Shown: one piece after another, positions 1 through 17,359 of the stretch
How positions within the stretch are numbered: the first letter of the stretch is position 1
Layout: each line of letters starts with the position of its first letter
NCBI GenBank assembly: GCA_005223375.1
Contig: RXOD01004720.1
Location: 1 to 18,848, forward strand
DNA: 18,848 nt
Reading direction: 5' to 3'
Source: Amoebophrya sp. AT5.2
Lineage: Eukaryota; Sar; Dinophyceae; Syndiniales; Amoebophryaceae
Translations under genes and position numbers: made by a program
Notes under the pieces: model-generated
Database searches by the model: none
What the model was told of the DNA's origin: nothing
What the model saw: only the letters and a program-made list of their open reading frames with translations

Positions 1-3000
1 GGACAGGCTACTACTCGCGCTCCTGCCGGACGGAGGAGCTGGCCTGCGAGAGTTCGTTTCGCGAGAACGATGTGGCTCGCTTGCAAGCGCTATTCGACTC
101 CGCGCAACTGCCGTGGGAGATTCGCGCCCCGCAGTCGGCGCCGGCGTACGGCCTCCCTGTGTCGGAGTTCACGAGTGAGAGTCAGAACGGTACGCGGTTC
201 GGGTGCGAGGAGCAGCTTCTTGTGCCCGCGGCCGTCCCGGTTCCGCTTCTGCCGAACGGCCCCGACGTCACGCTTGAGATGTGGCTCCGCCTCCACGACG
301 CGCTGCCCGCAAACAGCTACGACGACCCCAGTGGCCGCTTCGCAAACGCCCGTCCCGTGCAAATCCTCACAGGCCGCATCTTCCAGTGGTACCTCGGCAT
401 AGCGGCAGCCGCGGAAGGCAGTACTATTTCATCAGCTGCAGCAGGAGCGGGATCGGTGGGTGCGGCTCCGGTGCAACTCGTGCTGTTTCACGAAGGTTTG
501 ACCAGCGACCGGAGCCGGTTCCCGCAGCGGCGCTTGTACTCGCAAGCCTTCGCGCTCATGGCCAACGCGTGGACGCACGTTGCCGTCAGTGCCGAGAAGC
601 ATAGTAATTCAGCGTCCTGCACTGCTACGTTCTACGTGAACGGCCGGGAGGTTTCCGCGGAAACCAATCTCCCCTGCGCAGCCGCCGCCGCCGACGTCAC
701 GGGCTTTGCGCCGCCTTCCGCCATGTCGCCGGCCCTACTGGACGCGGTGCATCTAGGGGGGCCGAACTTGAAGCCGTATTTCGATATGTACGCAGCTGCG
801 GGGAACGGCGGATCATCGGCGAACCCTTTTCCGTATTACGGGAGGGACCACCCTGTGCTGGTCAATTTCGAACTGGACCTGGTCCGGTTGCACGGGTCCG
901 GCATTCCGGCCCACGCTTTGGGGTTCTTCACCTCGCCCCTCGCCACGCTCCGCATGTGTCGCGCGAACGGCAACGTGCACTCCGCCTCCCCGACGGACGA
1001 GCTCTTCGACGCGGGCAACTGCTTCCGCAGCACTGCGGCGCTGAGTACTGCGGGGATCCTGGAGGTGGCCCAACGCGGATCATCGGGCCCGGGATTGACG
1101 TCGTTGTGTGCAGGAGGTTTTGAGTGGAAGGAGGGGAGGGGGAGCTGCGTGAAGAGCTGCGACGCCAAGTCCGTCACAGTAGACTCCGACTCGTCCCAGC
1201 AGGGAACTACAAGCGTGAACGCAGGCAAGACCATCCGCTACCGCGCGCCCCGGACGTTTGACTTGGCCGCGCAATCTTCGGTGGAGGCGGGTGGGCAGTG
1301 GGCGGGTGGGCAGTGTGACTGCACGCTCGGCGAGTTCGCGGTGTGGCGGGTCGACGCGCTCCGGCTGCGCGGCGACGGTACGGTGGCCAGTGTGGAGGTT
1401 TTCGACGCCTCGTTGAATCTGATTCCGGCGTTTACCTACCAGGATCCCTCCCAGGCCAGCGCGTCCCTGAAGGACCTTTCCTTACCTGCCGGGTTGGTGC
1501 TTTCGGAGGGGGTTAGTAACAATGTAAGGGAGGTCGCTGTGCTCCGCGTGACGAAGGGAGCCGGCTCGGTGTCAAAGCTTACCTCCGTGGAAGTGAAGGG
1601 GGGGCTGGCTGGCTCCTGGCGGCTGGTCGACGCCTTCACCGACCGATGGTCGTTCACGGGTGGAAGCGCGGCGGTGGTCTACCTGCACCACCGGCCCGTG
1701 CACGAAGACGTGGACGCATGCGCGCCCTGTCCCGCAACCGCTGCAGGGGTCTCGAAGTTTCCGCGCACCGACGTCTTCAGCTGCCAGTGCGCGGCCAGCT
1801 ACGGCAAAGACTCGCTGGGGCGATGCCAACTGAAACGACAGGCGCTAGACATGCCCAGGATCGTGGCCGAGGTGACAGGTAGACATATGTCTTCATCCGG
1901 ATTCGGTTGCGATGGCTATGAGTTTTACGATAGAAGAAGTAAAGCCCGTTGTGTTACAAATATGCTGCGTTGTGCTCCTGCTTCTTCGACAATCCATAGC
2001 TCCGCACTCCATCAACAGGTTCCGCTACCACGACCGTCGCGCGCTTCCTCCCACCCTCGACTGCGATTATCCTCAGCCTCCCCGCGAGCATCGATCCCCA
2101 TATCACCGACGTCAGCTTCGCGACCATCCGCTACACGACGAACTACTCGCCCTACGACGAAACGAGCGACGCAGCCACCCCTGCGGCGGATGCGCTTGAC
2201 TGCGACGCTGGCAGCTCCGGAAGTAGCGGAGGTGCTCACGCTCAGACTAGCGGTGGCGGAAACGTCATGGAGGTTGCGGTGGGTGCGAACGTTGATGGAA
2301 GTGCGCGCCTGCAACTGCCTGCATTGACCCACCGCAACATGGTGATCCGGGCAATTGTGTGTCACCCGTTGCACGAGAAATCCGCGGTCACGCAAAGCGT
2401 GTTCACGACGAAAGCGAGTCTGCCCGACCCCAGCTGCGAGGTCGCCGCCGGCGTGGAAAGCGTCGTGCCGCCGGGGTTTGAGTTGAGTATGAGTTCGAGT
2501 TCGTCTTCTTCATCCTCCTCTTCCAGCAGCTCGACGAGTAGTTCGGCAGGTGGTGCAAACAAGGTGTACCGCGACGAGGTCTCCATTTCTTTGAACTCGA
2601 ATACGCCGACGATCGCTGGGGTGGTGATCAGGTACGTCTTCAACGACGACTTCGACAACGTGCACACGTTCAGTACCGCAACCGCCGCCGCGGTCAGTAG
2701 TATAAAAGTGTCAACAGCCGGGGCGACGAAAATCACCGCGTGGTCGCAGCGCGTCAGTTACGAAGACTCGCGGAGGGTGGACTGCGAATTCCGGGTCGAG
2801 AAGGAAAGTGGGGGTGGTTCGCCCGCGTCGTTGCAGTACTTGGGACAGACCCTGGCAGATCGCAGAGGCTACAGCAGCAACGACCAGGCCTGGACGTTTC
2901 TGTTGCCCCCAGAAATAACTGGGACAACTACAACCGGCACGAGCGCGAAAATCGACGTTTCCATCGCACCCGGCGACCCATCGGGAGCGATTGTGCGCAC

Positions 3001-6000
3001 CAAGCTGGTCCGCACCGAGTTGCGCACGTCGTCCGTTCCGGCAAGTACCTCGTTGCAAGTCAAGGATGACGGCCTCCTTGCCGCCCTGCCGGAGGGCGGG
3101 GGCGCGGTTTCGTTCAGTGCGGACAGTTTGCTCGCGAAGCCGGCGACCACCACAAAGGTATCACTTTTCTCCACGGTGAAACGGCCGGGCCTGGTCTGGT
3201 CGCCGGTTGCGCGACACAACTTCGTGCTGATCCGCTCGCGCACGCCGCAGCCGACCGTCGTGTTTGAGCCGACGGACGAGCTGCTGACGCTGCGGAATGG
3301 GCACCCGCACGCGCACTGGTTCGGCCGGAGGGGAACTACGACTTCTGACCAAGTAGCGGGTGTTGTTGCCGAAAGTGACCGCGCGACCATGCTCGCGCAG
3401 CCCCACAAGGCCGTTTTCCTCGGCAGTCCTGCTCCGGGAGGGGCTTCTACTACTTCTCCTTCCCCGCCAACTACACCGAGCCCAACCTTCCTCTTCGCGC
3501 TGCGGAAGCAGATCGCGGGTGAGAACGCACCCGGAATGGTCCCACGGTCGGCGCTTCACCTGGTCCAGGAGCTCTCGGCGAAAAACTTCAGCAGTCTCCA
3601 GGCCGCGGATGCGTTGCAGCTGCCGAAGCAGCGCAAGGTTTACCAAAGTCGCGCGGTGCGGGAGGACTGCAACTTGGCCACGCTTGACAGTTCTTTGACA
3701 ACCCCAACCTTGTCCGGGTTCCAGACGCTGTGTAGTTTCGACGCGAGCAAGGAAATTGTGACCCACATCGGGGACGACGTGGCGGTGTACGGCTGGCACC
3801 AGGACGAACTTGTGTCACAGCCGGCCGTTGCAAGGAGCCCCGGATTGGCGCTGCCACCCCCGAACCACCCTGACTTTGAAGCTGTCGCCCAGCTCACCTC
3901 CGCCTCCCCGGCCCGGGTCGTGCGGGACCAACGCACCCCGACAAAGGCGATCACAGGCACTGCAGGTAGGCAACACAGCGTGGTGGAATTCACGTTAACG
4001 CATCCGACGGCCGAGCGCGAGTACTGTACGCACGCGGTCGGGTTTTCGCTCCTGGGTCAGACCGGGCAGAGCCAGAAGTTGTCGACTTCTGCGGCTGGAA
4101 TATTAAACCCTGGAAACGACCAAAACGACAATCCATGCCTCCTGAATCCGAAGACGAGCGGCGACGCGGTCGGCGCCTGGAAAGCGGTGCCGGCGCACGG
4201 GGGTGCGGTTCAACTGTCCACTTCCCCGAGCGAAGCAAACAGCGTGAGCGCCAATGTTCCGGCAGAACTGAACCTCAACCTCACGATCTACTCGAGCGTG
4301 CGCCGCGACGGGTTTTTGCCCGCCTACCCGTTTCAAGCTTCGGCTCATCTCGTCGTCCTGCGGGAGCGCGCGCCGGCCCCGATTTTGATGCCGATACTTC
4401 CCTCTGCTAGTACGGCTTCTGGCCCGTCGTCCGCCTCCACCGCGCAGCGTCGTATCGCGAAGTTTCTTCTGTGGTCGCCGACCATCGCGCTGTCAACTAC
4501 CGGCGCTTCAGACTCAAAAGCCCAAGACTCAGGGGAAGACGCAGTTGGGGCCGCGCGCACCACCCTGAGCCTGTACGGGGCCGGGAGTGACAACCTGGGG
4601 GCTGCGTCCGGCGCGCCGCCCTCCCCCTGGACGCAAGCGTCCTTCACCACGGTCCCTGCCGACTCCCTCCTCGACGTGGTCACGGTCGCGGAAGGACTCA
4701 CGGACAACATCAACCAAGTCGTCACTTCCATCGACCAGACCTCTGCGAGCGGTACAGGTGGTCCCTGCACCTCGACGTTCCCGAAGGTGTGTCGCTTTGC
4801 GGGGGAGGTGAAGGCGGTGGCGGTGGTTGACGTCTTCAGTAGTGCGTTGAACGCGTTCTGCGGGTGGGTCGTTGGGCCCGGGCTGCGGGAGTCCACGGGG
4901 ACGTGCGTGGAGATCGACCAACCCACTCCTGCCGCTCTTGCCGCCCTCGCCCAAGACAGCATCGCGATCACGCTGCGCGTGAGCAAAATACTGGAGTCTA
5001 CGAGCCTCGCCAACGCGACGGCGAACGCAGCATCCTTCTACCTGGATCCTTCGGACGGTGCCGTGGTCGCGCCGCACTACGTGACCGAGCTCGATCTCGA
5101 GCTGGTGGCGGCGAAGCTCCCCTTCTCGTCTGTGGTACTTCAAGCGGAGGAGGATTCGGGGAGTACAACCTCAAGCGTCAGCGCTACGTTGCTGTCAACA
5201 ACCAACATCAATCTAGGCATCGGTCGCTTGGCGCTACCGCACCCTAGTACCGCACAATTTCGCCCCTACCGCACCTACGGCCTCCACGCCCAGTACGACC
5301 CGAGGCTTCTGCACTACGAAGTTGTCGCGAGAAACGCCGAACACATCAGCAGTGCCGTCGAAGGCGAAGCACAACTTCTCTCCAGCGCTGCAAAATTTTC
5401 TGCGGTGGTCCGCGTCCGGGAAGCCGAAGCGAATGCCGGGGCCGCGGGGAACGGAGTTTTTGGGACTCGTCCTCAGAACGCGTTGGTCACGCTCAAGCGC
5501 CAGGGCGTGCTGTCTCCGCCAGTACCGCGCGTTTCTGCCGCAACAACGAAAACAGGCCGCTTCCTCCGCTTCGGATTCGAAAGTGGATCTTCGACTTCTG
5601 CAGAGGCTTCGCCCCAGGCACCATCAGCAGCTCTCACCTTCGCGTTCATCGTGCTGTCCGACGTCGGGGATGAAAGTTCGAGTTTCAATTGCAGCTCGTT
5701 CGACGCGATCACATCCGTGAGCAGTCTTGAACTTGGGAAGAAGCAAGTCGTCGCGGCGCAGGCATCGCAGGCGGCACTGCTACCTGGGCTCAAGAATATC
5801 GAGTTTGTGGACCTCAACAGTGCTGCAAACTCGGCCTCGGCGGCGATGGAGACCGAAGTCACGACCCCTTCCGAGTCGCCGTCGGAAAGCGGTGGCGAGA
5901 ACCAGACGAATCTTGCCGAAGCTCCGAGTGCGTCATCCTCGCCTTCCGTGAGCATTCACCGCCTGACTAGCCGGCTGACCCAGGAGGGCGGCGAATCCGG

Positions 6001-8794
6001 GAAAACGAAGCTCCTGGTCTGGACGACGGCGAAATGGAGCGTCGAAAATGGCGGAGGTTCTGCCAGCACAAAAACCCTTTCCGGATCCTTCGACCCCTTT
6101 TCCGCCGCAGGCAGGCGCAGGTCCTCGTCGGAGTCCGCCGCTTACTCCGAGAACAATCTCGAGCTTCACCTCGATTTCCTCCCGCCACAGGCGACGGGGA
6201 ATCGCAATGCCGGCTACAACCTCTGCGTCCGCGCGTTCTCCGACGGCAACCTGAATTACGCCGTGTCCCCCACCGCCACGATCCGACAGCTCGGGAAGCA
6301 CGACAACTCCTGGTTCTCGCTCCCCCACAGCCGCGTTGCGGTCTTCGAAGCGATCGTCCGCAACTTCGAATTCCGCGCGGTTGCCGACGGCGGCTACTTC
6401 GACGAAGGCTTTTGGCGCCGCGAGTTGTCCGCGGTTCTACAAAAAGAGTTCGCGCTGCCGACGACGGAGTGGGTCCGGTCGCTGCAGTTTTCGGCGGGCA
6501 GTCTGAAGATAACCGCGGAGATTTTCACGACCGGGGAGCTCACGCGGACACAGGCAGACGCCGTCGTGAACGGAATCGCAACCGACGTGCTGCCGAAGGT
6601 CGTCGGAATAAGTACTAGAGCAGGTGAAGGAGAGTTTTCCGTCGAGCTAACCTCCTTCCACGGAGCGAGCGTTCACCCAGCCGACCAGGTGAACGCCCCG
6701 GGCAGCGGCTCCTCTCCCGTTTCCTCAACTGACAGCACTGGCGCAATCGTCGTCGCCTGTTTGTCTGGCGCCATTCTGCTCGTGCTGGGAGTGATTGGGC
6801 TGTTTTTCTATCATAGGTTCAAGATCAAGCCGGAATTTTGGAGGAGAAAGCAGCAGAAGCTTCTGGACGCAGAGAGCAGGGCCCTGGACGAAGTCAGCAT
6901 CGCGCTCGAGGAGGGGGGGGCAATTGAAGATGACGAGTGCGAAGTCATCGAGCTGTTCGAAGGTCAGGGGAAAGACGCCGTGGTCACGAAGCAGAAAACC
7001 TTCAGCTCGTCGTGGTTCGCTCGGCGGAAAAACCTGATCCCGGAGGGCATGTGCGTGTTTTGCGCGGGCCGGAGAAAAGCGTGCATTCACGGGCTGAAGT
7101 CCGCAATGGCGGACAAAAAAACGGACCAGCGGTTCTCGTGCTGCCAGGAATGCTTCCCACAGTGGTTTCCGCACTACGACGGAAAACTCGACGGTCGGGA
7201 CGAAGACATCTACGCCGAGCAGCTGCCGCCAATGCTGCTGTTGGCAGACGACGGTCGTGAAGCCGCGGTTAAAAAAAAGAAGACCTCCTCCTCCGACCAC
7301 AAGGGTGGCGTTGGTATCGAGGGGAAGATATCGACAGGAACAACAAGCCGAAGCAAGAAAGCCTCCATGAAGGCCTTGGCGTTGACGGACGGCGCGGCCA
7401 CGGAAAGTGAGTATGGTGGAGAAGACGAGGATGGCGATACGGGAGAAGCCGAAAGTGCGAGTGCCGCGCAGGAACACGAAGATCTGGAGCTGGATGAAGG
7501 ACGAAGCGACGACTTCATCGAAGAGAACAACGATGAGTCATCCATTGATGAGGTAGAAGATAAAGATATCGAGGACGGCTACGAGGAGGAAGAGGCGGAG
7601 GAAGAAAGCGGCCTCCTTGGCGAAGATGAAGACGAGGAGCAGCACCTTGAGGGAGATTACGATGAGGACGAGGCTGAAAATGCCGAAAGTCACGCGCTCG
7701 ACATTGCCATAGAAGGTGCGCCAGCTCTACTCGAAGAGGCCCGTGCTGGCAAGGAAACCGCGAGCGCCGGCGGCGTTCTTCTCCCTGTTCCCTGTTCTCC
7801 TGAAGAAGGATTGGGAGCCGAAGCTGCCTCAAGCGGAGTCAGGTCTTCGCAGCGGGACAGCAGGCGGGCAGCTGGGATGCTGTCCCGCTGCGAAGACCTG
7901 GAGCAGGTTTCGCAGTGCGATGCTGTTGCAGCTGCCTCCCACGAAGATTGCAGCCGCGGCTCTCTGGTTGTCGTGCACGGCAGCCGGACGAGCCACAGCG
8001 GCCGCAGAAGCCGTGCTAGTGTGACACAGATGAACCCAGACGATTCGCACGAAGGAGCCGAACCAGAACTAGGGAACCTCCCACTTTCGCCCCCTGGTCT
8101 AAGCCTCGCAGCGGTGGATGCTCTTCTTGCACCCCCCACCGACGCCGGGGAACCCGGGAACAGGAACACTTCTGCCTTCGAGTCGGGAGTCGGGGAGGGA
8201 AATTGGGACTTCCTGTTCACTTCCATGGTGGACGACGCGCCGCTTACGTTTAGGAGGCCGAGCGCTTTGCCCGCGCCTCCAGATGTCGTCGGATTCCTGT
8301 CAGCTGCACCGAGGCCGACACCTCCCACCGCTTCTTTGGAGAAGAAGTCGAAAAATGAGAAGCGGGGGAAAAAATCAGAGAAAAACACTCTGCGCACGGA
8401 CGAGGAGATGGAGAGCAGAACCAGAAGAAGTCGAAGCAGGCGAAGCAACCATAGAAGTACCTCCGGAAGTAGGTGGTCGCGCTTTTCCTATGGGGAGGAA
8501 GATGGAAAAAGGAGGACCCGCAGCAGTGCGAAGAAGAAGAAGAAGAAGGATGAAGACAAGAAGAATAAAAGCAGCGCCTCGTCGGTGTCGAGGTCAAAGA
8601 AGTCGCGGGATGATCGCGATCGCGAGCGGAGCGAAGCAGACCGTAGTTGGGGGAAGTCGGTGCGAGAAAGTAGATCCGGGTCGAAGAAGAAGAAGAAGAA
8701 ATCTTCACTCAGGTCGGACTCGTCCGATGTCGCTGACGCGGATCAGGAAAAAAAGAAAAAGAAAAAAAAGAAATCGCACGCCGCGGAGCCGTAA
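1..8794 (+). CDS. Giant single-pass membrane protein with LamG-like ectodomain (5' partial)
   Basis: Exons run from the window edge (first whole codon at 3) to 1878 and from 2019 to the TAA at 8792-8794, giving 2883 residues here; the start lies upstream. Residues ~75-325 look like a LamG/concanavalin-type domain, with hydrophobic strands, a WTHVAVS motif and FYVNGREV. Cys-rich segments follow, including CAPC to C608 (residues 573-608), which resembles EGF or ephrin-receptor-like modules. The long ectodomain has a Ser run and recurring stretches such as IRYTTNYSPYD followed by VIRAIV, which recall chitobiase C-terminal/Ig-like modules (weak inference). One membrane helix (~2200-2224, nt 6740-6814) is followed by basic residues, so the C-terminal side is probably cytosolic. 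The tail has C2304-x2-C2307-x6-C2314-x-H2316 and CC-x2-C at 2333-2337, possibly zinc-binding, then a Glu/Asp-rich region and a Lys-rich end. It is probably a surface receptor or adhesin; family and ligand are not recognised. Confidence 0.8.
1879..2018 (+). other. Spliceosomal intron (140 bp, GT-AG) in the membrane-protein gene
   Basis: The upstream exon reads in frame 3 and ends GTGACAG|GTAGAC (phase 1). The downstream exon reads in frame 2 from CAACAG|GTTCCG. Removing 140 bp restores one frame (V-T-G-S-A-T-T) that stays open to 8794. Frame 3 stays open by chance past the donor to 2327, but its content becomes Arg/Pro/Thr-rich noise, while frame 2 contains sensible strands such as FATIRYTTNYS. 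Both junctions share ACAGGT. I see no terminal inverted repeat. Confidence 0.8.
2492..2544 (+). repeat. Serine-codon low-complexity tract
   Basis: A run of mixed Ser codons (AGT, TCG, TCT, TCA, TCC, AGC), broken by one Thr, lies in the ectodomain. Codon use is mixed, so it is not a pure trinucleotide expansion. It is probably a flexible linker between two ectodomain modules. Confidence 0.75.
7840..7900. repeat. Perfect 23-bp inverted repeat inside coding sequence
   Basis: The left arm 7840-7862 (CAGGTCTTCGCAGCGGGACA plus GCA) is the exact reverse complement of 7878-7900, with a 15-nt spacer at 7863-7877. The pair could form a 23-bp hairpin in DNA or mRNA. It lies in the cytoplasmic-tail coding region and translates as SSQRDSRRAAGMLSRCEDLE, so it does not break the frame. 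I found no convincing target duplication around it. Confidence 0.9.
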
Positions 8795-10095: not shown

Positions 10096-13000
10096 ATGGA
10101 GCAGAGCCATGGCAGCATCCAGAGTACGCGTCGCGTTGTTCTGGAGGAGAATAGCACCGCCCGCAATAAAAAGCAGATCGGCGGCGAAGAGAGCAGCTCT
10201 TGCGGCGACTACTACATTCCCGAGTGGACGAATGGAAGCGAGGCTTCCGCCCTGGTGGGCGAGGCGGGGAAAAAAATTCAGGGCCTCCTCGCGGATGACT
10301 CGGAGCAAGGCAGTCAAGCATTCGAGGCGAGTGGCGTGAGCCGCTCCCACTGGTCCAAGGAGCCTAGCAAGGTCCTGGAGGCAAGCAAGGTCCAGGAGCC
10401 CAGCCACGTCGAAGAGGAAAGCACAATGGAGGCAGTCGTTATCGGGAAAAGGGCTGCGGACGGGAGCGACAAACAGCAACAGGTGACCGTGGTACTAACA
10501 CCAAAATACAACTCTTACTTTTAGCTGCGCTGCAGTATCAGTGAAGAACTTCAGCTCCAGGATTAGGTCCCCTATAAAGAGGTACTTAAACAGAATGAAA
10601 AATAGGGCGTGCTATCTATCATGCTGCATGTATCCTTTTTATAGATAGACTTTCTGGCTGTCCAGGCGAAGATGAAGCCGAAATCCACCGCGAGGACGCG
10701 TGGCCCGCATATCGAGATGAGTGCGTCGGAGGCTTCGGTGCACCTGCTGAGCCGGAGCGCAAAAAACATCAAGGACGCGATCAAGGCCGACGAGGTGCGC
10801 GCCGGACGCCCCAGGCAGAAGCGCAAATCCTCTTCGTCGGCGATTGTTGACGGGGAGCCGGACGCGAAAAAGGTGAAGCCCACCAAGAAGAGCGACACTT
10901 CTTGCGGGGGTGGAGGGCAGAAGCAGAGTCCTCTTGGCGTCGGCGCAACTACGGTGGCGGGGCTGAGTGCTGCGGAACGCAAGCTCGTGCTACAGGAGCC
11001 ACCGAAGACAGTAGGGACTACGTCGTCTTCCAAGAGGAGCAAAACTGGCGCCCCCAACTCCGACTACTCCACGTTTCCCCCGATGGTTGCTTCGAAGGGC
11101 TCCGCCGGAAAAAATATCAGCTCTTCCTCAGCGAGTCATAAGAAGAGCGGCGGCAAATCTGTGTCCACTTCTACGAAGGTGAAGGCGTCTTGCGACCCTG
11201 GAGGTCACTTCTCCGACAACGGGGGCTACAACAGCAGCGCCACGACCACAACGGGCGTTGGGTCGAGCCACCAGATCAGCAGCGGAATCCCCAGCACGCG
11301 CAGCAGTTACAACTTCTCCAACCACCACTCCGGCGACGACTTCACACCCGTGGCCGCTTCCTCGACCTCTCGCAGTCACCCGAAGGAGCCGCCGGCAACG
11401 CGAACGCGATTGCCGCCGGCTCCGCGCCCGCCGTCGGCTGAGGAGCATGCATCGGCCAGGAGTCAGACGGCAGCGGCGCGCGAAAAAGAAAGAGAACGAG
11501 AACAGCAGACGCAGAACAAGAACACGTCCCGAACAACTACGACCACGGGAAAACGTACCACGGGACGCTGCAAAAATGGCCGCATCCGGGGCTTGTACCT
11601 GCCGGAATACGCGGAAGAGGACGAACGAGACCCGCTTGGAGAGGGGCACAAATTGTCCCACTGCGAGCAAATCATCGTTTACGATCGCGAACAGCGGAAC
11701 CGCACATCAAGAGCACAACGGCAAGCGAGTGGTGGAGATGGGAAGACACGGTGGGACCACAATCCTGCGCCGCTGGTCCCGGTGCAAAAATCCACGGCGT
11801 CGTTTATGTCTGGGGCTACTTCGACGTCACGGCGGATTGCGGCCAGTAGCTCTGCGACCTCGCACGCCGCGGGAAGGGGAACTAGAACTGCAACGGCAAG
11901 CGCCCAGCATGTCAATATTCGAGCAGGGAGCTCGACTGCGCAAATACCGGGGACAGGCGCAAACAACATTGTGGTGAATCCCGTTCTCCCCGGAGATAGC
12001 CAGGGCCAGCAGCCGCGGGGGCGCACCGCGACGCCCAAGAAACAGGCGAAGCCTCCACCGGCTGAAAAATCCGAGTTTGACGAGGAGGATTGCAGGCGGA
12101 ACCCCAAGGACTACCTCTGTAGGGACGAAGAGGTCATCATCACTGCTAGCAGCAAAAACGAGCTCTACCCGCGGTTCAATTACGACGCGGACTGGGATGA
12201 CAATTTTGGCGATAATCGTGGGAGTTCCTCGAATCCTTATTCTCTGAAGCCGCCGTGTCAGTCCGGACGCATGGGACTCGAGACCGCGAGGCGAAAGGCC
12301 GAGAAGCGCGGGTGGATCAAGTTGGACGAGGGAAGCTACATCGCGGGAAAGCTGCAGGATAAGCACTACAAGGAGGACGTTTTTATCGAGCCTGCAACCG
12401 GCAAATACATCCGCCGCGTGACTATGGCCGGACCAGGTGGGAAGTGGGTACCTGGTTAGTGCTAGGTGATGGGTCCCCCCTTTCGGGCGGATTGCCCTAG
12501 GTGGCGACTGCGTCAAGGCGCCCGGCGCGAAGCGCCGGGCAGTTTCAGAGATACCCAATTCTTGTGGGGAGTAGGAACGGCAGGGAAGTGAGCCACTGCG
12601 GGGAGCAGGGAGAGGAAGGTCATGGAATTGACAAGCCGGTAGCTAGAGTGAAGCTAGAGCATGACAGCAGGAGAAAAGGGGACCCCTTCTAGGGCGGCGC
12701 TTCATGGTTAGCTGCGGGGTGGTGCTGCAAGGGTGGCAGGCTTGCCAACCCACCGCAGACGGCCGCTTTTGCCCCTAAAACTCCAGGCTTCCGAGTAGAA
12801 CCACCGAAGGGGACCCCGAAGAGCCCCAAAAAAAAATCGCTTGCCTCTCACTTACTTATCACCTGGTCTCACCATAGTGACCGCGCGCAAGGACGTGCTG
12901 GACGAAAGTGACGAAGCAATTCGGGAGCCGGGAAAGGGACTGGGGATGTGCCGACAACCGCTGGAGGGCACCACCTTCTGGGACAATAACGAGAAATACG

Positions 13001-14274
13001 CGCAGAACTGGGCGCATGACTGGGAGAAGAAGTTGGCTCAGTGCGACACGGAGTTTGAGAACATGCGACCCGTGCCCGGGTTGGACCCAGAATTGAACAA
13101 AGTGGGATATCGCCTCGCATACTTCCTGCGCCACTACATGCACCGGGCGGGGAACGTATCCTCGGACTTCCGAGAGAAATTCAAGTCGGGGTACCACCAT
13201 TTTTCGCAACTTTACTACTTTTAAATGGTTCTTCGTTGAGCTGTTCTGTGATCGTGATGAGCATGAGAGATAAACGAAAGCAGGTACGTACCGTTCGAGA
13301 TGTTGAAGACGGAACACTTTTTGGCTGGGATGTCGTTCACCGAGTCCGACCTGAAAGAAATCGCCGCGAAGTCGGAGGCCGACCGCCAGCGCGAGGACCA
13401 GCACGTATGGCGAGCTTTACGACTTAATTTGCGACTGCTTGAAAAAATTATATGCAACGGGTTCATCTTTCCTCCTCGACGTCGAGGCCTCTGATCCTCG
13501 GGGTGAGGGGTTGGGAGGATCAGGGGCCTAGACTTCTAGGGTTGCTCACAACAAGAGGGGAGGCATCCGCTATGCCTCTTGGGTCAGCATGCTTCGGACA
13601 GCGGACTCATCTAGCTGGGACCGCATGCAGACAGGTGGCTTCCTTTGTAGACCTATGCCAACGGGGGTTCGCAAAGAGTCTCTAGACCCACCCCTCTCCT
13701 CGGCCCTCGCCTACCCGATTCTCGTGCAGCGTCCAGAGGCAGAACAACATCGGCCGCCAGGTCAAAATACTATATCCTCCGCCATCGCCTCACTTGTTGA
13801 TGGTGATAGAATTGTTATAAGTTTTTTGTTGTTTGCTGATAGCTTTTTTCCAGTTTTTCGATTGATTAAGTCGCAATCGGCTCGCCATAGCACGATGGGC
13901 ACCTTTACAACGAGCGGGTCTTCCGGTTCGAGGTCTGGCCCAAGGTCTTGAGCTTCAAGACCACCGCGTCCAAAAGCAGCGGCGGCCTCACCGACACCTA
14001 CGAAAGAGAAGTGCTTTTCGTGCGCGCGACCGACAAGCACTGCAAGAGCATGACGCCGTGGCTAAACCTGAGCCTCACGCCGGCGTCGGATCGGAACGTA
14101 CTGGAGTGGTTCACGAAGGAGGCCATTCCGAAGCACGCGCGCGCGTCGGATCGTATGGGCACGCACTCGCCGATCAAACACGTGCCGCACCTCCACGAAA
14201 AACGCCCGCCGCACGTGGAGGGGGCGGCAAGGGTAAGGGGCCATAAATCGGTGGCGAGGGACAGGAAGTATTAA
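10096..14274 (+). CDS. Disordered basic protein with C-terminal KptA/Tpt1-like region
   Basis: Proposed exons are 10096-10482, 10666-12454, 12878-13190, 13284-13404 and 13891-14274, totalling 2994 nt in one frame (997 aa, stop TAA). The start is the first ATG of the first open exon. Residues 1-~660 are low complexity, rich in Ser, Thr, Lys and Arg, with NLS-like KRK and KKVK clusters. From ~665 the protein is folded-looking. KVGYRLAYFLRHYM (R810, H811), GYVPFEML, FTESDLKEI, VFRFEV (R882) and VRATDKH (R915, H920) follow the order of the KptA/Tpt1 N-lobe: LRH, G-x-VP, RFE, then R-A-x-Q-G-H. That family removes the 2'-phosphate left by tRNA splicing using NAD+. The C-lobe with the last catalytic Arg is short or unrecognisable, so activity is doubtful. 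The link to exon 1 is the weakest join; translation could instead begin at 10672. Confidence 0.65.
10366..10416 (+). repeat. Short tandem 18-bp coding repeat
   Basis: AGCAAGGTCCTGGAG at 10366-10380 recurs with one change at 10384-10398, and a diverged third unit follows. The protein reads SKVLEA, SKVQEP, SHVEEE, a six-residue period. This is slippage-type growth of a disordered region in the first exon. Confidence 0.6.
10483..10665 (+). other. Probable intron (183 bp) joining exon 1 to exon 2 of the KptA-like gene
   Basis: The donor CAACAG|GTGACC and acceptor CTGTCCAG|GCGAAG are both phase 0 and join two frame-1 ORFs. A branch-like TACTAAC at 10493-10499 lies only ~10 nt from the donor, which is odd. 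It sits better before the alternative TTTTAG acceptor at 10524, but that route soon meets stops in most frames. The two ORFs may therefore be separate genes or alternative 5' ends. Confidence 0.45.
12423..12876 (+). mobile_element. Introner-type element, family A copy 1, within intron of KptA-like gene
   Basis: A 454-bp non-coding element flanked by perfect 5-bp target duplications GTGAC (12418-12422 and 12877-12881). Terminal inverted repeats match 18/23: TATGGCCGGACCAGGTG at the left, and TATGGTGAGACCAGGTG as the reverse complement of the right. The acceptor is CCATA|G, the element's last TA plus the first G of the duplication, with the exon starting at 12878. The donor is inside the element: CCTG|GTTAGT (12455), or alternatively CCAG|GTGGGA (12437); both are phase 1. 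Left-end element sequence therefore becomes coding (12 or 6 extra residues). The empty site would read R-R-V-T-A-R-K. Shared blocks with the copy at 16383 include GGCGGATTGC and AAGGGGACCCC. Confidence 0.88.
12520..12540. repeat. 9-bp stem hairpin inside family A copy 1
   Basis: GCCCGGCGC (12520-12528), loop GAA, then GCGCCGGGC (12532-12540), a perfect stem. A hairpin occupies the equivalent place in the copy at 16383 with a different stem sequence. Confidence 0.8.
13191..13283 (+). other. Spliceosomal intron (93 bp) in KptA-like gene
   Basis: The donor AGTCGGG|GTACCA (phase 2) and acceptor AAAGCAG|GTACGT join F-K-S-G to Y-V-P-F-E in one frame. Without splicing the frame ends at TAA 13222-13224. 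The join rebuilds the G-x-VP stretch expected in the KptA/Tpt1 winged helix. GGTAC occurs at both junctions. No terminal inverted repeat is visible. Confidence 0.75.
13406..13889 (+). mobile_element. Introner-type element, family C; element and intron ends coincide
   Basis: A 484-bp element between perfect 5-bp duplications GCACG (13401-13405 and 13890-13894). Its ends are perfect 10-bp inverted repeats, TATGGCGAGC (13406-13415) and GCTCGCCATA (13880-13889). A second inverted pair lies inside: CGACTTAAT (13420-13428) and ATTAAGTCG (13865-13873). The intron is 13405-13890: donor GT is the last G of the left duplication plus the element's first T, and acceptor AG is the element's last A plus the first G of the right duplication. 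Splicing leaves CAC|CAC where the empty site had one CAC, so one His is added and the frame is kept. It encodes no protein, so it is presumably non-autonomous and MITE-like. Confidence 0.92.
13485..13529. repeat. Internal inverted repeat in the 13406 element
   Basis: AGGCCTCTGATCCTC (13485-13499) pairs with GAGGATCAGGGGCCT (13515-13529), 14 of 15 positions, around a 15-nt G-rich loop. Confidence 0.8.
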
Positions 14275-15097
14275 TTAAATTCTAGAACCCGCTACGATGA
14301 AATTGATGATGTTGATGAAAAGGAAAACTACCCGTATATAGATAGTTACTGGCAGAGCTGATGCTCCGATGGCGGTGCATTAGTCGGCACAAGTACCAAT
14401 GCGACAGCTGTGTGATTTCCTCCACAGTCGTTCTCAGTCTACGGATGGGCTTTATTCGCGATCATCTCTGTTTCGGACCGCTCTTCTTGTTGGCGCTGGA
14501 TAGATGCATTCCAAGAATGTTGACCTGTCGCGACGTCCACGCCCATACGATCCATAGTTTTGATTTTCTCAAGGAAAAACGCGCGCTCCCATGTGCGACG
14601 AATAAACAAATCAAATGACACAAGGAAGGAGCCCAAGACAAAACAGGGGAAGAGGCAGAACACATCTTCATTTCATCAGCAAAGTATGCGTCATCGTCAT
14701 GGTCATCCCTGCAAAAATAAAAGCTGCCGCCGGGCATGTGATTCATAGACGCAGGAAAACAAAGCCGTGGTGTTCGCGCGGGTCACTTGCTCTGCCAACT
14801 ATAGCAAGATCCGGATCTACGTCTGGCTCTGGCGCGCACAAACTAGAAAATGAACCCCTACTTGATGTTGATGCATTATCGTATCACGCATTCTAGTTCC
14901 TCCGCTTTTGATATCAATCTCATTCTTGCTCTTGTTCTTCCCGAAAGATTGATGAATAGGTTCTCATCCGACGCGGACGCGCTCACGTGGGAACATAAAA
15001 ACTTGTAGCATACTTACTTACATTCCCCCCCTACTAAAAAAGCTAAAAAAAAAATAAGTCAGTACTCGAACTCCACCACTGACGAGATCAACAAGAG
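14275..15097. other. Intergenic spacer between KptA-like gene and PGAM5
   Basis: About 820 bp holding the presumed 3' UTR of the upstream gene and 5' UTR of PGAM5. AATAAA occurs at 14601-14606 and 14716-14721. The open frames here (longest 94 aa, minus strand) have no recognisable content. No RNA gene, introner end or promoter element was identified. Confidence 0.5.
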
Positions 15098-17359
15098 ATG
15101 GCTACCTTCCTCCGTCCGTCCTCGGTACTTACTTCGGCAGCGCCCCTCGCGGCGTCCTTCGCTAAGCTGTGTGGCGGCAACGCAAACGGAGCATCGGACA
15201 GTGCCGGAGCACCAGACGAAAGAACGCCGCAAGGGCCAGGAGAAGTTTCTGCAAGTAGAATCTTTGGCGGCTTGCGGTTGCCAGGAAGGCAGAAACCGGT
15301 CAGTTGCGAAGAGAAGCTGACCCTCGACGCAAGGTGGCGCGCGAAGCCGGCAGCCGAAAGAACCAATACAGGTAATGGTACTAGTACGTAGTGTCCTTCG
15401 GTTCAACCCCCTAGCGTTAGTAAACACCGTTGTTTAGCAAAAAGCATTTTCCTAAAAAGTTCCACCGCTACTTCACAGACTACTATGTGGCGACGCAGAA
15501 GGATTGGTCTCGCGCGTGGGACGACGACTGGGACGGGCGCCACGTGGTGGACCGCGGGCAGTCTGCGGAGGAAGTGCGCGCCGAGATGAAGCAGCGCAAG
15601 GAAAAGGACGGCAAGTCCAGCGTGGTGCGGCACATCTTTCTCATTCGCCACGGCCAATACGAGCTCGACACCGACGAGGAGGGTCTCACGGAACTCGGAC
15701 GCCACCAAGCCCGAAAAACCGGCGACCGGCTGAAGCAGATGGCGGACGGCCTCAAAAAGGACCACTACGGCGAAATCAAGGTGACATGGAAAAAGGTGAC
15801 CACTAGGTTTTTGAGCAAATACTTAAGACCCAATGCTTTAGAGGTCCGATGGTGCTAGCTCTGTCCGATGACCCCCCTTGAACAACCATGGCTCGGGAGG
15901 ATTAATTGGCCGACTGTTGGGATTGATTGTGATTGGATTGATTGCCCGATCTGGCTAGGACGCTGGCGCAGATTGATTCGTACGGGGCAGTCTGCGACAT
16001 AACCAGCAGGGACTTTGATCAGAGACAGACGGCAGCTAACTGCGGGAAGGGTGTAGCCTACAATAGACTTCCGTGATCTGACTTCGAGGGGTTTTTCCCC
16101 CCCCCCCGAAAGGGGTAAGTCTAAGTACTGTAAATGGCTTACACTTGACACAGCCTAGACCATCGAGTCTCGCCGTCGCCGCATTGAGTTCAATATCAAT
16201 ATGGTCTCTAAGACTAGCTCGGGGCTGTTGCGAGCGAAGCAGACAGCGGACATAATCGCGGAGAAACTGGGGTTCGCGGGGGATTCTGGGAAGAATGGCA
16301 ACACGAGCGGGGTGGACGAGTATGACCCGCTGTTGAACGAGGGCCGGCCGTGCGTGATGCACCCTGGTGCGGGGGTGGACTTTATGAAGAGACCAGATGG
16401 TAAGTGAGGAAGTGGTAAGTGCTGTGTAATCTAATGGGTTCCCTTGGCGGTGGCGGATTGCACTAGCGATGGCGAATACCGATCAGGGCGCTCTGAAGTC
16501 TGCCCGGGTCGATGAAACACCCGGGCGGTTTTTAGAAATGGGCCCCATTGTGGGGGGAAGGAGGCCGGCGGCACTAGAGCTGTGGGGGTAGAGGGGGCAG
16601 GTCACAGCAAGTCAGTGGCTAGAACAATGGTGATAGAGCTTGGAAGTAGGGCAAGCGAGGGCGTGTAGAGTGGTGCTTTCCTCCTGGTGTCAGCGGTAGG
16701 CGCGCGCAAGGGTGCCAGCCCATGCCATAGCCGCAGAAAGCCGCCTGCTCCCTCTCCTTTTTAGGACCACCAAAGGGGACCCCAAAAAGCCCCCCACAAA
16801 ATTCACTCACCACTTGCCCACTCACCATCTGGTCTCTCCATAGACTTGGACAGCTCGAAGCTGGCGAAACTCGGCACCGACCCGCCGCGCATCGAGGCCG
16901 CTTTTCGTAAATACGTGCACCGGAAGGAGAACTGGAAGCGGAAGGAAGGGAAGAAGGAGAAAGTCACCGAGATCTACACGGGGCGGTCGGACTCCACCGG
17001 AGGAACTGGTGGGGGCGAGAACAGCAGCGACGGCGCCGCGAAAAAAGAGTATGTTACTAGCCAATGATCTACATTTCTTCGCTTCAGAAGCAGTCTGCGC
17101 TGGAGCCCTGGTGCAGAATCGATGGTCTCTTAACTCCAACAACAGGGTGAAGCACGAGTACGAGATCATTGTGTGCCACATGAACGTGATCCGGTATTTT
17201 GTGTGCCGCGCGCTGCAAATTCCCCCGGAAGCGTGGTTACGGTTTCGCGGCGACAACTGCGGCATCACGGAAATCATCGTCTACGACGACGGCCGCGTCT
17301 CGCTCGCCAGGTTTGCCGACCAGGGGCACCTCACCATCGAAGAAACCACCTTCCATTGA
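15098..17359 (+). CDS. PGAM5: PGAM5-type mitochondrial serine/threonine phosphatase
   Basis: Histidine-phosphatase superfamily. PGAM5 proteins are mitochondrial Ser/Thr/His phosphatases with a phosphoglycerate-mutase fold. Preferred exons are 15098-15371, 15479-15795, 16159-16399, 16844-17048 and 17146-17359 (416 aa; human ~289). Visible features: an N-terminus MATFLRPSSVLTSAAPL rich in Ser/Ala with one Arg, like a mitochondrial presequence; WDDDWD at 105-110, matching the WDxNWD activation motif with D for N; RHGQY (R148, H149 phospho-acceptor); SSGLLRA (R222); LLNEGRP (E258); VCHMNVIRYFVCRAL (H357); and PPEAWLRF with a C-terminal GRVSLARFADQGH. All core catalytic residues are present. Insertions in the middle include seven residues from an intron element and a Lys/Glu-rich loop near 300-330. 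The exon 1/2 join is uncertain. The frame ends at TGA 17357-17359. Confidence 0.9.
15372..15478 (+). other. Intron 1 of PGAM5 (boundaries ambiguous)
   Basis: Exon 1 is in frame 2 and exon 2 in frame 1, so an intron is required. Option A, ATACAG|GTAATG to TTCACAG|ACTAC (107 bp, phase 1), has the better splice sites. Option B, AGTAC|GTAGTG to TTGTTTAG|CAAAA (15388-15437, 50 bp, phase 2), keeps an extra 19 residues including KKHFPKKFHRYF and gives a 435-aa protein. Both preserve the frame. Confidence 0.6.
15803..16157 (+). mobile_element. Probable introner-type element, family D, in PGAM5 intron 2
   Basis: The intron is 15796-16158 (AAAAAG|GTGACC to GCCTAG|ACCATC, phase 0). Within it, GACCA at 15798-15802 and again at 16158-16162 fits a 5-bp target duplication around an element starting CTAGG and ending CCTA. 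Beyond those few bases the ends are weakly inverted: TACTTAAGACCC (15820-15831) against GGGGTAAGTCTAAGTA (16112-16127). The acceptor is again the element's terminal TA plus the duplication's first G. The empty site would read W-K-K-V-T-I-E-S; splicing drops the Val, a net change of -3 nt. It also contains a C12 run at 16096-16107 and GATTGATT repeats. The evidence is weaker than for the other three. Confidence 0.6.
16383..16842 (+). mobile_element. Introner-type element, family A copy 2, within PGAM5 intron 3
   Basis: A 460-bp non-coding element between perfect duplications GACTT (16378-16382 and 16843-16847). The terminal inverted repeats are 39 bp with 34 matches (16383-16421 and 16804-16842); the outer part reads TATGRAGAGACCAGATGG. 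The donor GATG|GTAAGT (16400) is inside the left repeat and the acceptor CCATA|G is at the right junction, giving intron 16400-16843. The spliced reading V-D-F-M-K-R-P-D-D-L-D contains seven residues (272-278) absent from the inferred empty site V-D-L-D. A TGA at 16405-16407 rules out the second GTAAGT at 16415 as donor. It is the same family as the copy at 12423, at clearly reduced identity. Confidence 0.93.
16502..16526. repeat. 8-bp stem hairpin inside family A copy 2
   Basis: GCCCGGGT (16502-16509) pairs perfectly with ACCCGGGC (16519-16526) across a 9-nt loop. It is at the same place as the 12520 hairpin in copy 1, but stem bases and loop differ. Confidence 0.8.
17049..17145 (+). other. 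Intron 4 of PGAM5 (97 bp)
   Basis: The donor AAAAGA|GTATGT (phase 2) and acceptor CAACAACAG|GGTGAAG join K-K-E to V-K-H-E-Y-E-I-I, restoring the conserved strand before the catalytic His. A branch-like CTTAACT lies ~10-15 nt upstream of the acceptor. There is no terminal inverted repeat. Confidence 0.85.

Follow-up and report, generated by a model that had tools for sequence, protein, structure and literature searches.

The origin of introns and the removal of introns that lack GT-AG borders are open questions. Introners with terminal inverted repeats and target duplications were reportedly described by Huff and colleagues in 2016. For algae and other protists, the part of Gozashti et al. 2022 (PMC9860276) available to us presents introners that originate from DNA transposons, usually leave the length of the mRNA unchanged and recruit their splice sites partly from the target duplication. 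Within Amoebophrya, the consulted portion of Farhat et al. 2021 (PMC7789003) reports introners in A25 and A120; these are non-canonical, carry hairpin-capable inverted repeats at both ends, show direct repeats of 3-5 nt over the exon/intron boundaries, spread in a transposon-like manner and fall into strain-specific families. The same portion gives the introns of AT5 as 99.98% canonical, and a 2025 paper (PMC12005148, seen in excerpt) proposes that only part of the genus has these strange introns. Nonconventional introns of euglenids, a different lineage, likewise have borders that are not conserved and a secondary structure that joins the two junctions (PMC6221363, in the text at hand).

The elements analyzed here are real and represent new families of this already known kind. 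Like the introners of A25 and A120, they are apparently non-canonical, have inverted repeats at both ends that could form hairpins, have direct repeats over the boundaries (5 bp in our case) and show transposon-like spread. The inverted repeats of A120 begin with TAT, as they do here, whereas the A120 motifs published in PMC7789003, as far as that text was available, end in at least three As; because such a run is absent here, we do not file the family as an A120 family, although the TAT start matches. The elements also resemble MITEs, i.e., they are short, have terminal inverted repeats and duplications, occur in many copies and, at 229-548 bp, are too short for the usual transposase gene; unlike MITEs, they are apparently removed from transcripts with exact restoration of the reading frame. 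Our literature search, in the texts available, found no report of such elements in AT5, which is not proof of their absence. The value of the present data lies in a probable host for these elements, in the rejection of an acceptor rule proposed for them (see below) and in evidence at the protein level that removal is seamless and non-canonical; moreover, as many insertions lie in conserved genes for which the uninterrupted protein is known, each copy can serve as a separate test of splicing rules.

Elements and host genes in the window

The window, i.e., the whole stretch of DNA analyzed, is one complete contig of 18,848 nucleotides from a 50.7-Mb assembly and is eukaryotic judging from its genes. 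The earlier note on this DNA had described four introns in it as transposon-like, each with a 5-bp duplication at the element ends. This description holds for three of them (E1, E2 and E4; Table 1), which are introners by their ends, their duplications and their relatives in the genome, but not for the fourth ("E3"). E1, E2 and E4 are each bounded by terminal inverted repeats (TATG...CATA) and flanked by a perfect 5-bp duplication; their inverted-repeat ends match at 9, 10 and 11 of 12 bases, respectively, as compared to a best value of 8 among 20 shuffled windows. When the whole window was scanned for TAT...ATA pairs located 250-600 bp apart and flanked by a perfect 5-bp repeat, exactly three pairs were returned, i.e., E1, E2 and E4. 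In E1, the internal GTAAGT motif is altered to GGAAGT.

Table 1. Elements, target duplications and genes in the window (coordinates are those of the window)
Feature	Position	Strand	Basis or remark
E1 and E2 host gene	10096..14274	+	exon chain 10096-10482, 10666-12417, 12877-13190, 13284-13400, 13890-14274 (our reading)
E1 target duplication, 5' copy GTGAC	12418..12422	+	perfect 5-bp repeat
E1, family-1 introner, 454 bp	12423..12876	+	inverted ends, genome relatives
E1 target duplication, 3' copy GTGAC	12877..12881	+	perfect 5-bp repeat
E2 target duplication, 5' copy GCACG	13401..13405	+	perfect 5-bp repeat
E2, family-2 introner, 484 bp, ends TATGGCGAGC...GCTCGCCATA	13406..13889	+	
E2 target duplication, 3' copy GCACG	13890..13894	+	perfect 5-bp repeat
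PGAM5-like phosphatase gene (His_Phos_1), host of E4	15098..17359	+	exon chain is our reading
Region claimed as "E3": single-copy GT-AG intron (AAAG/GTGACC...CTAAG/ACTA), 417 bp	15796..16212	+	PGAM5 homologs
E4 target duplication, 5' copy GACTT	16378..16382	+	perfect 5-bp repeat
E4, family-1 introner, 460 bp, within PGAM5-like gene	16383..16842	+	
E4 target duplication, 3' copy GACTT	16843..16847	+	perfect 5-bp repeat

A similarity search of the genome with the region claimed as E3 (15805-16158) found no relative. The junction that the earlier note had placed at 16158/16159 implies 18 residues that are missing from all 14 PGAM5 homologs aligned (of 120 among the matches listed); the homologs place the acceptor at approx. 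16212/16213, which gives an ordinary GT-AG intron. E3 as an element is thus ruled out by the absence of relatives and by the acceptor shift that the PGAM5 homologs call for.

A homolog search with residues 600-960 of the E1 and E2 host gene scored no homolog. Elsewhere in the window (2000-8794), there is an open frame of 2264 residues without a Pfam match, the C-terminal part of which is acidic and rich in lysine.

Two element families in the genome

E1 and E4 are members of the same large family (family 1). The inner end motif of this family has 939 matches with up to 2 mismatches in the 50.7 Mb (485 forward and 454 reverse), as compared to 35 for a control, and its 18-bp end pattern has 390 exact matches genome-wide, as compared to 0 for a control; assuming two ends per copy, family 1 would comprise about 450 copies. 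Long matches of this family are 66-86% identical to E1. E2 represents a second, smaller family, for which a search scored 20 candidates, most of them covering the interior of E2 alone. Three of the four copies fetched had perfect 5-bp duplications (AACCC, GAGGA and ACTTC), and in these three the two ends agreed at 20-22 of 22 bases. Both families start with TATGG. The further copies that the earlier note had proposed to search for are thus present for both families.

Family 1 was sampled at 71 end pairs, from loci picked either for their end motifs or because they resemble E1, so that the sample is not random. After filtering on end score and on a duplication with at most one mismatch, 62 copies were retained, and nine with more than one duplication mismatch or with weak ends were left out. 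The end caller slides the ends to seek a repeat, and a repeat with at most one mismatch was also obtained in 175 of 296 swapped pairs; for this reason the pass rate of 62/71 is not itself evidence for a duplication. With unshifted ends, placed by the end motif only, an exact 5-bp repeat was present in 40/62 copies and a repeat with one mismatch in 12/62 (expected with swapped partners: 0.67 and 1.24, respectively), i.e., in 52 copies as compared to 1.9 expected. The 5-bp duplication therefore holds across family 1.

A codon model, for which part of the training data came from the loci that it scored, called 38 of the 62 copies coding and 24 not. The analyses of coding copies below use the 36 with clean ends (L008 and L016 were excluded), 33 of which required no sliding of the ends. 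At least three of the 62 copies have doubtful ends (L010 at 120, L037, and L046 at 2130), none of them among the 36. Many element ends are located near contig ends (e.g., in the first ~120 bases of C13, C542, C797, C910, C1070, C1418 and C1441); these repeats thus probably interrupt the assembly, and our copy counts are minimum values. Part of the inverted repeat also matched a viral contig exactly, but the second end is absent there and the match was dismissed as due to chance.

Reading frame, proteins and splice signals across the junctions

The coding frame was scored independently on either side of each copy. When the element and one copy of the duplication were removed, the frame was kept in 30 of the 32 strongly coding copies (chance 1/3; P = 1e-12), in agreement with the frame continuity that the earlier note had described; the two exceptions were L052 and L010. 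Among the 30 copies with a weaker coding signal, the frame was kept in 19 and lost in 11. Simple translation of the elements is excluded, as their length plus 5, modulo 3, was random (13/11/9 in 33 copies).

Twenty joined proteins, chosen by us partly for their conserved look, were submitted to Pfam. In nine of these, a domain above the cut-off spans the restored junction (SPC25, Cys/Met PLP enzyme, dynein AAA, kinase, Rpb2, NUDIX, ABC membrane, thioredoxin and, only just, cNMP binding). Compared to solved structures, the junction is free of gaps in RPC2, cystathionine beta-lyase (at YDYTRSGNPTR), MAP kinase, DNA polymerase epsilon and axonemal dynein, with gaps away from the junction in all of these alignments except that of RPC2. 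For the NUDIX copy, the match to a solved structure stops short of the junction, and a search of solved structures with the SPC25 query found no homolog. The PGAM5 homolog closest to the host of E4 is colinear with a seamless join and has no extra residues.

The only gene model from the same species that we saw is P0121 (EukProt, SPC25), which maps to this genome at 99, 95 and 89% identity by exon. This model is not seamless, which counts against seamless removal: it contains 36 extra residues from both ends of the element (L046, C69), a GT-AG intron being taken inside the element. P0121 is 99% identical in the alignment; its local alignment shows 85% over 95% of the query because of this insert. 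The SPC25 homolog P0122, from another genome (66-72% by exon), shows no interruption where the element is inserted.

Six cut positions within the duplication yield an identical mRNA, so the exact cut can not be read from the DNA. A GT-AG pair is available at any of the six cuts in only one of the 36 coding copies (L022, dynein); GC-AG is offered by one copy (L107) and AT-AC by one (L065), and an AG at the intron end is available in 21/36. A canonical splice site formed with the duplication is thus not a general feature of these elements. As GT-AG is absent from every possible seamless cut in 35/36 copies, removal would have to be mostly non-canonical, and as judged from the DNA this would apply to nearly all coding copies. 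By comparison, in the examples of PMC9860276, as far as its available text describes them, splice sites come from the element, the duplication or the exon. In L022 (C2684), a dynein heavy chain gene, the two duplication copies differ at position 1 (A vs. G), and solved homologs have K or R at the corresponding residue, which fits either. A search for U1 snRNA in this genome gave no match, and control genomes likewise gave none.

Proposed mechanism and rival explanations

We consider it likely that E1, E2 and E4 represent two families of non-autonomous DNA transposons, i.e., MITE-like introners, and that the transcripts lose the element together with exactly one copy of the duplication. A copy would insert into coding DNA and duplicate 5 bp; the short elements may be moved by a transposase acting in trans, which would also make the 5-bp duplications. 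The loss of the element and one duplication copy from the transcript, probably at the RNA level, would leave the mRNA unchanged. The paired inverted repeats would bring both copies of the duplication together and probably define the junction, with the cut presumably falling within the duplication copies. A hairpin may thus guide removal, and the predicted folds of E1, E2 and E4 show the last 40 bases paired with 24-26 of the first 30 (one base out of register in E4). A G after the terminal TA would help or be favored and would not be required.

The earlier note had proposed a stricter role for this G, namely that each of its four duplications begins with G, that the terminal TA plus this G supply the acceptor TAG, and that the family prefers sites with an initial G or persists only there. 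G is indeed present in the three real elements of the window, and it occupies position 1 of the duplication (3' copy in gene sense) in 19 of the 36 coding copies, as compared to 10.9 expected by codon phase (P = 0.003), while C at position 5, used as a mirror control, is at background (9/36, expected 10.4; paired sign test 15:5, P = 0.041). The claim fails for the family, however, as the other 17 coding copies have a different base there, including those in SPC25 (TTCTA) and NUDIX (CACTG), where the domain runs through the junction; even where G is present, GT-AG at that cut needs the duplication to read GGTNN. The genome-wide data likewise show no target preference for G, which follows 161 of 558 matched element ends (28.9%), as base composition predicts (approx. 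27.9% expected, the sampled loci having a GC content of 55.7%); among the 24 non-coding calls, with both directions counted, G was found at 11/48. These data reject TA plus G as a general acceptor rule, and we regard an acceptor of this kind as unlikely. They give some support to the notion, also raised in the earlier note, that selection within genes favors G, although not to survival at G sites only; there is probably mild selection for G at position 1 in genes. A different possibility is that ordinary GT-AG introns lie inside the elements and that both element ends are kept in the mRNA as short extra peptides, as in the model P0121, which combines an AG inside the element with a second donor. 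In the inverted repeat, GTAAGT is located approx. 17 bp from each end; 42/62 copies have a second GGTAAG at 26-50 bp from one end or both, and, besides the intron at 15796-16212, five other introns of the window are in our reading also GT-AG. GTAAG is intact on the 5' side in 31/36 coding copies and on the 3' side in 27/36, and some donor use is possible in phases 0 and 1. On the other hand, the 5' GTAAG is broken in 5/36 coding copies, including E1, the eight phase-2 copies would carry in-frame stops (5' TGA in 3/8; 3' TAG in 6/8, i.e., those with G at position 1), and the added residues would interrupt YDYTRSGNPTR, the RPC2 core and Pol epsilon. Internal GT-AG introns as a general solution are disfavored by these in-frame stops and conserved proteins, and we consider them quite improbable.

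The insertions could also be unspliced, i.e., inactivating or polymorphic. This appears very unlikely, as copies that have diverged to the extent given above are still flanked by open, coding frames, and as conserved genes such as those for RPC2 and Pol epsilon are hit. Excision at the DNA level in some life stage, similar to that of ciliate internal eliminated sequences, would account for exact removal that is independent of GT-AG, and both element termini have a TA. Ciliate excision, however, keeps a TA, which would not restore the frame here, and we know of no precedent for DNA-level excision in dinoflagellates. Amoebophrya introners are moreover described as RNA-supported introns in the part of PMC7789003 that was available, and of all the explanations weighed we give DNA excision the smallest chance.

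Two further features of the insertion sites were recorded in the 36 coding copies. T at position 4 of the duplication (gene sense) was found in 18/36 (expected 6.3); this excess had not been predicted and emerged among 20 combinations tested. Insertion phase (18/10/8) did not deviate significantly (P = 0.10).

Genome context and AT5

We lean slightly towards the view that intron removal is sequence-independent and repeat-guided in AT5 also, i.e., beyond A25 and A120, and that the "canonical" AT5 gene set is in part an annotation artefact. If this is true, gene predictors limited to GT-AG would read through the element ends, as in P0121, and hide hundreds of introner introns, and the excess of G at position 1 on the sense strand would be the footprint of insertions drifting toward AG acceptors. 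If the elements are in AT5, the suggested restriction to a subset of the genus (PMC12005148) and the 99.98% canonical figure (PMC7789003), both as worded in the portions available, would need revising, and the protein set would contain spurious element-coded peptides. Other proteins of the set that includes P0121 may also carry introner-coded residues.

A 21-mer that we take to be the dinoflagellate spliced leader has 18 exact matches in the genome and 33 with at most one mismatch, as compared to 0 for a control. These 33 places are scattered, mostly one per contig, and could be leader genes or reinserted spliced transcripts. For comparison with the GC content of the sampled loci, published GC values for Amoebophrya are 47.8 (A25), 51.2 (A120) and 55.92% (AT5) in Table 1 of PMC7789003, and an Amoebophrya strain from Karlodinium is given as 65.2% AT in the excerpt of PMC12005148 at hand. 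Together with the putative spliced leader and with P0121, the GC content points to Amoebophrya AT5 as the probable host. The AT5 column in Table 1 of the latter paper (AT 54.5%, maximum scaffold 1.914 Mb) has the values of Fugacium kawagutii in Table 1 of PMC7789003 (GC 45.5%, 1.914 Mb), which, judging from these tables, is probably a copying slip.
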